Below, piece by piece: positions 2,977 to 7,040 of a DNA stretch of 64,000 nt. The stretch lies in assembly GCA_903789615.1 (NCBI GenBank), contig CAIFEV010000002.1:62001-126000 (forward strand), read 5' to 3'. Source of the DNA: an uncultured Lachnospiraceae bacterium (GTDB lineage Bacteria; Bacillota; Clostridia; Lachnospirales; Lachnospiraceae). A model generated the notes under the pieces. It was not told where the DNA came from and did not search any database. It saw only the letters and a list, made by a program, of their open reading frames with translations. Position 1 is the first letter of the stretch, and each line of letters starts with the position of its first letter. The translations under genes and the position numbers were made by a program.

Positions 2977-4170
2977 TTAAAACGTCCCGTTCAGGTAGTC
3001 GATCGCGTACGCGGCATAGGTTTCGGCCGCGATCACAACGGCATCCTCGTCGATGTCGAAGTGGGAATCGTGATGTGCGCAGGTAGTGTCCGGCTTCTCT
3101 TCATTTCTCGTGCCGACGTAGGCGTAGCACCCCGGGACGCGCAGATTGTACTCGGCGAAATCGTCTCCGCCCAGCGACGGTCTGCGGTCCGTGACGACGT
3201 TCTCCTGTCCGATGAGATGAGCAAGTGTAGCCTGAACTTCTTTTGTTGACTCCGGATCGTTGATGAGCGGTGAAGTGTTGTCCTCAAACTTGATCTCGGC
3301 CTTGCCGCCGTAAACTGCGGCGACTTTCTCGGCCAGGTCTGTCAGCATCCGGCGGACTTTTTTGCGGGTTTCCTGGCTGAACACGCGGATGGTACCCTCG
3401 ATGTCGGCCTTCTCGGCCACCACATTATAGGCGTTTCCGGCCGTGATCTTGCCGATGCCCACCAGAACATTTTCCATGGGGTCGGTGCGGCGGGTGATGA
3501 GCGCCTGCGCCGCCACGACAATCTGTGCGGCGATATAGGCAGCATCGACGCCAATCTGCGGCGTAGACACGTGAACGCCCTTGCCGGTCACATGGATGTT
3601 GAACCAGTCCACGGAGGCGTTGTTGGGACCGGGAACCGCGGCAACCTTGCCGACCGGGATGTCCGATGCGGCATGCAGGCCGAAGCTGCGGTCACATCCG
3701 TCGATATCGCCCTCACCCACGATAATGTGAGCACCGTACCCGATCTCCTCGCCCGGCTGGAACGTGACACGAACCGTGCCGCCGAAGCTGTCGCGGTTTT
3801 TCACGAGAAGCCGGCACGCTTCGATGAGCGCGGAGCAGTGCATGTCGTGGCCGCAGGCATGCATGACGCCCGCATTCTGTGACTTGTAGGCACACTCGTG
3901 CATCTCCTGAACCGGCAGCGCGTCGATGTCCGCGCGCAGCACAATGGTTTTGTCTCCCGGCAGACTTCCTTTAATTTCTGTCAGCACACCGGTTTTTGCG
4001 ATCCGTTTTGTCGTCAGTCCGAGCTTGTGGAGTTCTTCCTCGATTTTTTCCTGCGTGTGGAACTCCTTTGCGGAAAGTTCCGGATGCATGTGGAAAAACT
4101 TACGAAGACCGACCGCGTAGTCGCGGTCGTCTTCTGCCTGCTGACGAATTATCTCATCCGTCCTGCTCAT
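2977..4170 (-). CDS. M20 family metallopeptidase/amidohydrolase
   Basis: 397 aa; GVMHACGHDMHCSALI, FQPGEEIGYGA, SLGGDDFAEY, CAHHDSHFDIDE. Confidence 0.92.
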   Translation of the reverse strand: MSRTDEIIRQQAEDDRDYAVGLRKFFHMHPELSAKEFHTQEKIEEELHKLGLTTKRIAKTGVLTEIKGSLPGDKTIVLRADIDALPVQEMHECAYKSQNAGVMHACGHDMHCSALIEACRLLVKNRDSFGGTVRVTFQPGEEIGYGAHIIVGEGDIDGCDRSFGLHAASDIPVGKVAAVPGPNNASVDWFNIHVTGKGVHVSTPQIGVDAAYIAAQIVVAAQALITRRTDPMENVLVGIGKITAGNAYNVVAEKADIEGTIRVFSQETRKKVRRMLTDLAEKVAAVYGGKAEIKFEDNTSPLINDPESTKEVQATLAHLIGQENVVTDRRPSLGGDDFAEYNLRVPGCYAYVGTRNEEKPDTTCAHHDSHFDIDEDAVVIAAETYAAYAIDYLNGTF

Positions 4171-4176
4171 ATTGTT

Positions 4177-5151
4177 TTAAGCCTTCTTTCCTGCCAGAGT
4201 CTTGAGATCGTCAAGGCTCGATACTTTGTGCGAATACAGGGAGAGCGGTGCCATCAGCGTGTCGCCGATGGATTCGATCGCGTAGCCCTGGGTCTTCACT
4301 TCATTGTCCAGATATGCCTTGTGCTGGAAGGAGTTCAGATCGATTTCGCCTGAGTTCAGCGCTTCATTCGGAAGATTGTACGCATCGAACTCAACCAGCT
4401 CGATGTAGATGTTGGCATTTTCGTCATCAAGAACCTTCTGAACTGCTTTCCAGTGATCGTTGGAAGAACCGCACACGCCGACCTTCACAACGGTCTTGCC
4501 GCTCTTGTCGGACTGGTAAGCGTCAACCTCCGCGGTGTTGTCTTCCTGCTTGGAGGAATCATATGCGGAGAAGGACGGGATGAATGCCTCGCTGTACTTC
4601 GCGACGATGTAGTCGCCGACATACTGGCTCTGGAAGGCCTCAACGACCTTCTTGTATGTCTCGTTGTTCTTGTCGGCCGAACGCGCCACGATGACGTTTA
4701 CATACGGATTCTCAGCGCTGCCGGAGTCCTGCTTCTCGACGATCAGAGCATCCTTACTCGGAACCAGCCCCTGCGGGATTGCATACGTTCCGTTGATGAC
4801 ACATGCGCCGTAGTCATCCAGTGTGGACGGAAGAGTGTTGGCCTGAGCCGGAACAACTTCAATGTTGTACAGGTACTTTGTGATATCCTTCGTCTCCGGT
4901 GTGTAGCCGGCCGCCGGATCTACCTCGATGAATCCCGCTGCCTCGAGCAGCTTAATGGCACGTCCGCCGTTGGTCGCGTCGTCCGGTATTCCGATCTTGA
5001 CTGCTTCACCGCTGGATTTTGCAGCTGCCTTGTTTGTGGCCGCAGCCGATGTCGTGCTGCCTGCTGCACCTGTGCTGCCGCACCCTGCCAGAACACCTGC
5101 TGAAAGAATGGCAGCTGCCGCCGCCGATGCAAATCTGTTGAAATTCCTCAT
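4177..5151 (-). CDS. metQ: MetQ/NlpA-family substrate-binding lipoprotein with circularly permuted domain order
   Basis: 324 aa; lipobox LSAGVLAGC; then canonical C-terminal half (VKIGIPDDATNGGRAIKLLEAAGFI...LDDYGACVINGTYAIPQGLVPSKDAL...NPYVNVIVARSADKNNETYKKVVEAFQS) precedes canonical N-terminal half (VVKVGVCGSSNDHWKAVQKVL...LVEFDAYNLPNEALNSGEIDLNSFQHKAYLDNEVKTQGY...APLSLYSHKVSSLDDLKTLAGKKA). Adjacent to metI/metN. Confidence 0.88.
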   Translation of the reverse strand: MRNFNRFASAAAAAILSAGVLAGCGSTGAAGSTTSAAATNKAAAKSSGEAVKIGIPDDATNGGRAIKLLEAAGFIEVDPAAGYTPETKDITKYLYNIEVVPAQANTLPSTLDDYGACVINGTYAIPQGLVPSKDALIVEKQDSGSAENPYVNVIVARSADKNNETYKKVVEAFQSQYVGDYIVAKYSEAFIPSFSAYDSSKQEDNTAEVDAYQSDKSGKTVVKVGVCGSSNDHWKAVQKVLDDENANIYIELVEFDAYNLPNEALNSGEIDLNSFQHKAYLDNEVKTQGYAIESIGDTLMAPLSLYSHKVSSLDDLKTLAGKKA

Positions 5152-5217: not shown

Positions 5218-5922
5218 TCAGAGTGTTACCTTTTTTGCGAATATTTTCCGATTCGTCGTCCTCCTCGCCAGCAGGTTCCCGACTGTCTGCAGAACCGTGA
5301 CGAAGATCAGAAGAATCACTACGCACACATTGACCACATCCTGGTGGTGCAGGTTCTGGCCGTAGTTGATGGCGAAGCTGCCGATACCGCCGGCACCGAC
5401 CGCACCCGCCATCGTGGTGAGTCCGACGATGCTGATCGACGTGATTGTGATCGCTCTCCAGAGATCCGGAACGGCCTCGGCCAGATACACGCGGAAGATG
5501 ATGTCCGGAACGGAGCATCCCATCGCGCGTGCGGCTTCGATCTTTCCCGGATCGACGCTTGCCAGAACCGACTCAACCTGTCTCGTGAAGAACGGCGTCG
5601 CGCCGAATACCAGAGGCACGATGGCGCCCGTCACGCCAATTGACGTCCCGACAAGAAGTCTTGTGAACGGGATCAGGAAGATCAGCAGAATGACAAAGGG
5701 GATCGCCCGGAAGAAGTTCGTGACAACCGTCACGATGTAGTAGACCGCCTTGTTCGGGGCGATGCCGTCGCTCTTTGTGACGATGAGCAGGATCCCGAAG
5801 AAGAATCCGAAGATCAGAGTGAAGATTCCGGAGATCAGAAACATCTGGAGTGTCGCGGCGACAGCAGTCTGAAGTTTGTCCGTGTACTCCATCACATTGG
5901 GCATGAGTGCCTGAAGATTCAT
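5218..5922 (-). CDS. metI: Methionine-type ABC transporter permease MetI
   Basis: 234 aa; RAIPFVILL, EAARAMGCS, GAVGAGGIGSFAINYGQ. Confidence 0.92.
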   Translation of the reverse strand: MNLQALMPNVMEYTDKLQTAVAATLQMFLISGIFTLIFGFFFGILLIVTKSDGIAPNKAVYYIVTVVTNFFRAIPFVILLIFLIPFTRLLVGTSIGVTGAIVPLVFGATPFFTRQVESVLASVDPGKIEAARAMGCSVPDIIFRVYLAEAVPDLWRAITITSISIVGLTTMAGAVGAGGIGSFAINYGQNLHHQDVVNVCVVILLIFVTVLQTVGNLLARRTTNRKIFAKKVTL

Positions 5923-7040
5923 TGCTCTTCCTCCTTTCTCACATCCTCATCGGTGACTTCCTCGACCCTTACACCGCTGTCCTTAAGTATTTTCACCGCG
6001 GCGGCCGTCTGTTCCTTTGTGCCCTTGATCATGACGATCATGCTGCCGAGAGGCTTTTCCTCGAGAAGATCGATATTAGCCAGAACGATGTTGACCCGGC
6101 AGCCCGTCTTTTTGGCAGTTTCCGTGATAAGCGCCTCATCGGCACACGGCCCGGCAAAGACAAGCCGCACCAGCACATCGCCGGGTTCTGTTTTTTTCAC
6201 AAGCGGCGAGCCGCCTGCAAAGAGCTTGTCAATCCGTTTGAGTCCGCTGGAGCTCTCGACGAAGCTCGTCGCGATGTCGGACTTCGGAAGATTGAAGACG
6301 TCGTAGACATGACCGGTTTCGACGATTTCACCATTTTCCATGACGGCGACTTCGTTGCAGATTTCCTTGATGACGGCCATCTCGTGCGTGATAAGGACGA
6401 TGGTCAGCCCCAGCTTGCGGTTCAGCTCCTTCAGGAGCTTCAGAATCGACTCGGTGACGTCCGGATCCAGCGCGCTCGTCGCCTCATCCGACAGCAGAAT
6501 CTTCGGATCATTGGCGAGTGCTCTCGCGATCGCGACTCTCTGCTTCTGTCCGCCGGAAAGCTCGCCCGGATACGAGTTTGCCTTCTCGGTGAGCCCGACC
6601 ATCTTGAGCAGCTGCGCGACCTTCGCGCGGATTTCTTCCTTTGACTTGCCGCTCTTCTTCAGCGGAAACGCGACGTTGTCATACACCGTGCTGCGGTCGA
6701 GCAGATTGAAATGCTGGAAGATCATGCCGATGCTCTTTCGGAGATTCTGCAGATCCTTTTCGGTCAGAGGCCGCTTTCCGCTTCCGTCTGCCGGCTCAAA
6801 ATCCGCCCTTTTCTTCCCCGGTTCCATCGTCACGGTGCCAAATCCGTCGATTGTAAGAGTTCCGCTCTCCGGCATCTCGAGCAGGTTGATGCAGCGCACC
6901 AGCGTCGACTTTCCGGCGCCCGAGTACCCGATCACCCCGTAGATCTCGCCCTCCCCGATGGAAAGCGTCGCATTTTTCACCGCATGGACTGTCGCATCCT
7001 TCGTGACAAATGTTTTGTTGATGTTCTTTAATTCAATCAT
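5919..7040 (-). CDS. metN: Methionine-type ABC transporter ATP-binding protein MetN with C-terminal NIL domain
   Basis: 373 aa; Walker A GYSGAGKST, LSGGQKQRVAIARAL; C-terminal NIL-like extension. Confidence 0.93.
   Translation of the reverse strand: MIELKNINKTFVTKDATVHAVKNATLSIGEGEIYGVIGYSGAGKSTLVRCINLLEMPESGTLTIDGFGTVTMEPGKKRADFEPADGSGKRPLTEKDLQNLRKSIGMIFQHFNLLDRSTVYDNVAFPLKKSGKSKEEIRAKVAQLLKMVGLTEKANSYPGELSGGQKQRVAIARALANDPKILLSDEATSALDPDVTESILKLLKELNRKLGLTIVLITHEMAVIKEICNEVAVMENGEIVETGHVYDVFNLPKSDIATSFVESSSGLKRIDKLFAGGSPLVKKTEPGDVLVRLVFAGPCADEALITETAKKTGCRVNIVLANIDLLEEKPLGSMIVMIKGTKEQTAAAVKILKDSGVRVEEVTDEDVRKEEEQ

Follow-up and report, generated by a model that had tools for sequence, protein, structure and literature searches.

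The open reading frame (ORF) at positions 4177-5151, minus strand, of the window, that is, of the whole 64,000-nucleotide stretch of contig CAIFEV010000002.1 from an uncultured Lachnospiraceae bacterium analysed here, encodes a MetQ/NlpA lipoprotein of 324 amino acids (aa) whose chain is circularly permuted. Judging from sequence and gene context, this protein, named here metQ-CP1, very probably functions as the methionine-binding lipoprotein in a MetNIQ importer, and belongs to a family whose chain would have been re-cut at least four times. The group names CP1, CP2, A and B were coined in the present analysis.

The permuted order is directly visible in comparisons with ordinary MetQ, whose C-terminal part is resembled by aa 49-195 and whose N-terminal part is resembled by aa 217-317. 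In a phmmer comparison with PDB chains, the window protein matched E. coli MetQ (4yah) with a whole-protein E-value of 1.3e-43 in two blocks of reversed order, query residues 213-317 corresponding to 25-128 and query residues 52-178 to 132-255 (i-Evalue 1.7e-20 for each block). The profile PF03180 (Lipoprotein_9) was likewise matched in two stretches (E 2.4e-60), the best one placing aa 52-194 on profile positions 99-236 and the other one, in the scan of the own genome, reaching profile positions 1-96; both halves of the profile are present, in the order C then N instead of N then C. A sequence-only reading of this DNA had described the halves as swapped, and the reversed blocks bear this out, no collinear match to ordinary MetQ having been obtained. 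The scores against the NCBIfam models of MetQ lie under the respective cut-offs (175 bits against 374 for PRK11063, and 156 bits against 228.85 for TIGR00363), as expected when a permuted sequence is compared with a collinear model; such family models therefore under-score permuted proteins. Since both halves resemble one protein and occur once each, in swapped order and with the old termini joined, and no hydrophobic signal segment is present in the 22-aa linker between them (aa 196-217), the ORF is a circular permutant and not a simple tandem fusion, as the same reading had also held.

The identification of metQ-CP1 rests on its ORF, PF03180, phmmer and the order found among relatives, and its parts, all on the minus strand, can be followed along the chain. 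A lipoprotein signal peptide (aa 1-23) and a lipidated Cys24 are predicted at 5080-5151 from the sequence, with an intact LAGC lipobox at aa 21-24, just as had been claimed; residues 1-38 are disordered in the AF2 model. Lobe 2 (aa 49-157; 4681-5007) comprises the canonical C-terminal part up to YVNVIVAR and carries R64, N120 and N152, its extent being given by phmmer and the lobes being assigned by the residues described for the meningococcal protein (PMC6739813). It is followed by the canonical C-terminal tail helices (aa 158-195; 4567-4680), placed by phmmer, the order in relatives and the AF2 model, and by the 22-aa linker bridging the old C-terminus to the old N-terminus (4501-4566), delimited by the alignment of relatives. 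The core of lobe 1 (aa 218-317; 4201-4500), recognized by phmmer and its contact residues Y258, F275, H277 and Y280, corresponds to the canonical N-terminal part, and the chain ends in a new C-terminus, TLAGKKA (aa 318-324; 4180-4200), located at the cut first hinge crossover according to its sequence and to the relatives. The permutation point thus lies inside the motif SLDDLK...IAIPND (hinge 1), where it had previously been put. The AF2 model of the window protein shows a pLDDT of 85 and a pTM of 0.78, with the core above 90. Known NlpA structures are aligned to this model by Foldseek over approximately one lobe (84-139 columns, rmsd 1.4-3.0), which is what a permutation predicts because this aligner is sequential.

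Judging from the type II fold, the C-terminal tail helices of canonical MetQ would return to lobe 1. The permuted protein would be exported and lipidated as usual, its chain running from lobe 2, where R64, N120 and N152 would bind carboxylate and amine, through the tail helices and the bridge into lobe 1, whose four contact residues would form the thioether pocket. From the same fold, it would follow that of the two places where the ancestral chain crosses between the lobes, only one remains covalent, the membrane tether would now be situated next to the hinge and lobe 2, and the folded chain would form the same Venus-flytrap cleft and hand methionine to MetNI.

Methionine is held in N. meningitidis MetQ by R156, N213 and N238 from one lobe and by Y81, F98, H100 and Y103 from the other (PMC6739813), whose equivalents in the window protein are R64, N120 and N152, and Y258, F275, H277 and Y280, respectively. 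These seven residues are invariant in 29/29 CP1-A, 3/3 CP2 and 18/18 CP1-B proteins. The window metQ is under purifying selection (dN/dS 0.046-0.084, with 93% identity for two relatives of the same genus), and the genome (2.45 Mb, 99.6% complete, in 21 contigs) has no other NlpA gene; a pseudogene or relic is ruled out by both observations. The gene is situated between metI, encoding the permease (5218-5922; NF008049, E 3.1e-56), and the gene for an M20-family amidohydrolase or peptidase (2977-4170; profile match and relatives' operons), a conserved downstream partner of the operon, while metN, encoding the ATPase with its NIL domain, lies at 5919-7040 (TIGR02314, E 5e-110). All of them are on the minus strand, giving the operon order metN-metI-metQ-M20, with metN and metI upstream and in the same orientation, in agreement with the metNI neighbours named before. 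This metN-metI-metQ(-M20) setting is conserved among family-A loci, and the amidohydrolase adjoins metNIQ in operons of both permuted and canonical type. Furthermore, six CP1-A relatives have a T-box leader upstream of the operon, its specifier apparently being GAAC-AUG-G, which is read as methionine, and two of the six leaders reach the Rfam gathering score; no T-box or SAM riboswitch was detected upstream of the window operon, and no riboswitch was found in family-B loci. Purifying selection, invariant ligand residues and the methionine T-boxes of relatives further support the function that had been suggested from lipobox and neighbours.

NlpA proteins vary in ligand, and in most family-A operons, those of canonical Spirochaetaceae among them, metQ is followed by the M20 gene, whose conservation suggests uptake of a methionine derivative and its subsequent deacylation. 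It could thus be proposed that the permuted protein binds N-acyl-methionine, a methionine dipeptide or a sulfur compound, which would be cleaved by the M20 enzyme after import. We regard this as unlikely, given that all seven methionine-contact residues are invariant and that six relatives carry methionine-specifier T-boxes, although a methionine precursor would fit the latter too. Methionine itself is the ligand we prefer.

The order of the window protein is not restricted to this genome. With each species represented by one genome, a scan gave 39 relatives, approximately 28 of which are collinear with the window protein and hence show the swapped order, and other NlpA-family proteins of this kind are present in many independent genomes, including that of the cultured Holdemanella porci (L053). 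The linker measures 22-23 aa in all CP1-A proteins except one (25 aa). When 200 genomes from the phylum were surveyed at family level, a split reversed match was seen, among the matches listed, only in the window genome and in one B genome, so the trait is uncommon. Given the draft state of the window genome and the many MAGs among the relatives, it has to be considered whether two half-genes were joined by an error of assembly or binning; the probability of such an artefact is negligible, since order, breakpoint and the near-constant linker are common to dozens of independent assemblies, the same order is found in the isolate genomes L053 and L151 (see below), and metQ is under purifying selection, with low dN/dS, and we consider the artefact ruled out. 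Besides, the lipobox Cys is absent in many family-A permuted MetQ proteins (L036, L037, L040, L042, L043, L045, L049, L050 and L066), whose signal peptides end in AFA/ASA-like residues; these proteins may be secreted or remain uncleaved.

A second and distant clade with the same C-N order, clade B, was recognized in a scan of Clostridia. Its proteins (18 family-B rows of C-N order) are approximately 32-36% identical to the window protein, possess a bridge of 15 aa as against 22-23 aa in CP1-A, and are encoded in the operon order metQ-metN-metI; the B query is 60-71% identical to many canonical N lobes and 34% identical to the window protein. A protein whose annotation says simply MetQ, WP_212820853.1 (L151) of the cultured strain Vescimonas fastidiosa MM35, has a confirmed C-N order and 31% identity to the window protein, and appears to belong to clade B, the trees having been computed without it. 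Clades A and B are far apart in trees of re-ordered lobes. The cut lies at almost the same motif in both, which would suit a single permutation with diverged copies spread by horizontal transfer, but this is highly improbable: A and B as one clade are rejected by AU tests (p 7e-65; 8e-5 with the canonical sister described below included), p-values which, like the other AU p-values given here, are somewhat weakened because the tested clades were named after the first tree, the metN+metI tree being an independent data set. The identities of 65-71% between the B query and many canonical N lobes, against 34% to the window protein, and the different linker lengths and operon orders point the same way, and a single origin of all permuted forms is ruled out by the AU tests.

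A third order, CP2, is found in three family-A loci (L059, L062 and L064), in which the signal peptide is followed by the C-terminal tail, the N part and the rest of the C part; here the chain is cut at the second crossover between the lobes. CP2 as one clade is rejected both for metQ (AU p 4e-4) and for metN+metI (2e-58), and a single event is ruled out on the two gene sets; as the CP2 sequences do not form one clade on either tree, this order arose on two occasions, the simplest starting point being the C-N order. At least four events are thus counted, namely a change from canonical to C-N order in clade A, another one in clade B, and two independent CP2 changes, so that the NlpA/MetQ chain appears to have been re-cut at hinge-proximal points with all methionine-contact residues kept.

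Family A also contains five relatives of canonical order, four from Spirochaetaceae and one from Acholeplasmatales, the latter having its MetQ fused to MetI. Alone among 76 canonical proteins, these five carry an insert of 12-16 aa at the joint of the N and C parts, together with a C-terminal tail of 22-25 aa, as long as the permuted linker (22-23 aa); the joint insert is 0 in 71/71 of the other canonical proteins, and their tails do not exceed 7 aa bar one low-complexity exception. On the simplest reading, tail and hinge insertion would be older than the permutation and would have turned into the bridge and the new chain ends, an argument of length and position, because no sequence homology between the sister-group tail and the permuted linker is detectable (P 0.18-0.86). 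The five canonical proteins are sister of the permuted clade in the metN+metI tree (93/89) and nested inside it in the metQ tree (96/95), and neither AU test decides. The latter placement, as well as the occurrence of inserts at both junctions in these five proteins alone, would fit their being re-permuted descendants of a C-N ancestor. Such a reversion is nevertheless doubtful in view of the sister position on metN+metI, which is compatible with metQ too (AU p 0.46), and of tail and linker not being detectably homologous.

The C-N order probably goes back to a tandem duplication of metQ, after which the C-terminal tail of copy 1 would have been fused in frame to the mature N-terminus of copy 2 and the outer halves lost. 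Tandem in-frame metQ pairs with one stop between them exist in three genomes (L100, L143 and L144), and three consecutive canonical metQ genes stand in tandem in a fourth (L147, 1413-3992), which provides the raw material for such a route. The pairs show the step to be possible; they belong to other NlpA lineages and hence are no proof that it took place in family A.

Circular permutation of binding proteins is already known. Compared with MetQ/NlpA (PF03180; E. coli 4yah, N. meningitidis 6CVA/3IR1), the window protein has in common the sequence of both halves, the lipobox, the seven methionine-contact residues and the metNI operon partners, and differs in its swapped halves, its termini at the first hinge crossover and its 22-aa bridge. 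The glucose-binding protein Tp0684/MglB-2 of T. pallidum, a natural circular permutant, has been called "Type Ic", a type also described in Spirochaetes and Gram-positive gut bacteria (PMC4990184). Like the window protein, for which function is predicted, it is an anchored, permuted binding protein of an ABC importer, functional in its case; it differs in its type I fold, its sugar ligand, a permutation confined to the N-lobe, the addition of a fourth hinge crossing, and 13% identity between the moved part and its counterpart (PMC4990184). The window protein falls outside "Type Ic" by its NlpA family, whole-lobe swap and methionine residues. Natural circular permutants were also recognized with CPSARST among binding proteins for glycine betaine, such as OpuAC and ProX, and for molybdate (PMC2395249). 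These share the two-lobed build of the window protein, and structures of OpuAC are among the top Foldseek matches of the window model. Those proteins bind other ligands, share less than 24% sequence identity and were found by structure (PMC2395249), whereas permuted MetQ proteins are similar enough in sequence for events within a single gene family to be put in order. Searches of an open-access library yielded no account of a permuted MetQ or NlpA protein.

It is rare for circular permutations to combine high sequence similarity with several independent cases, a close relative left unpermuted and partner genes that are known; here, both the order and the route of change therefore become readable from sequence. 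With both hinge crossovers cut, at least four events, and a sister group carrying hinge insertion and tail, we consider it rather likely that NlpA/MetQ represents a natural, repeated permutation experiment. If so, the route would be a stepwise one, with tail and hinge insertion preceding tandem duplication and fusion, and one covalent hinge strand would suffice for a Venus-flytrap importer protein. Apparently, the break lies at one hinge crossing in the C-N order and at the other in CP2, allowing a direct test of how many covalent hinge strands are needed, and of the position of the lipid tether with respect to MetNI docking.

Several longer NlpA ORFs were also encountered. Those of 550-580 aa were considered as duplication intermediates and ruled out, being fusions with other binding proteins: the lipoproteins at L026 (1495-3207), L145 (1949-3688), L146 (1370-3100) and L148 (1505-3163) combine, in one chain, a canonical NlpA domain with a binding protein for amino acids that by eye resembles GlnH. 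At L149 (3-1709), one ORF encodes an NlpA domain and, after it, a binding protein which by eye is SsuA/TauA-like, and in an Acholeplasmatales locus (L068, 4167-5852) the MetI permease is fused to MetQ in one ORF of 562 aa.
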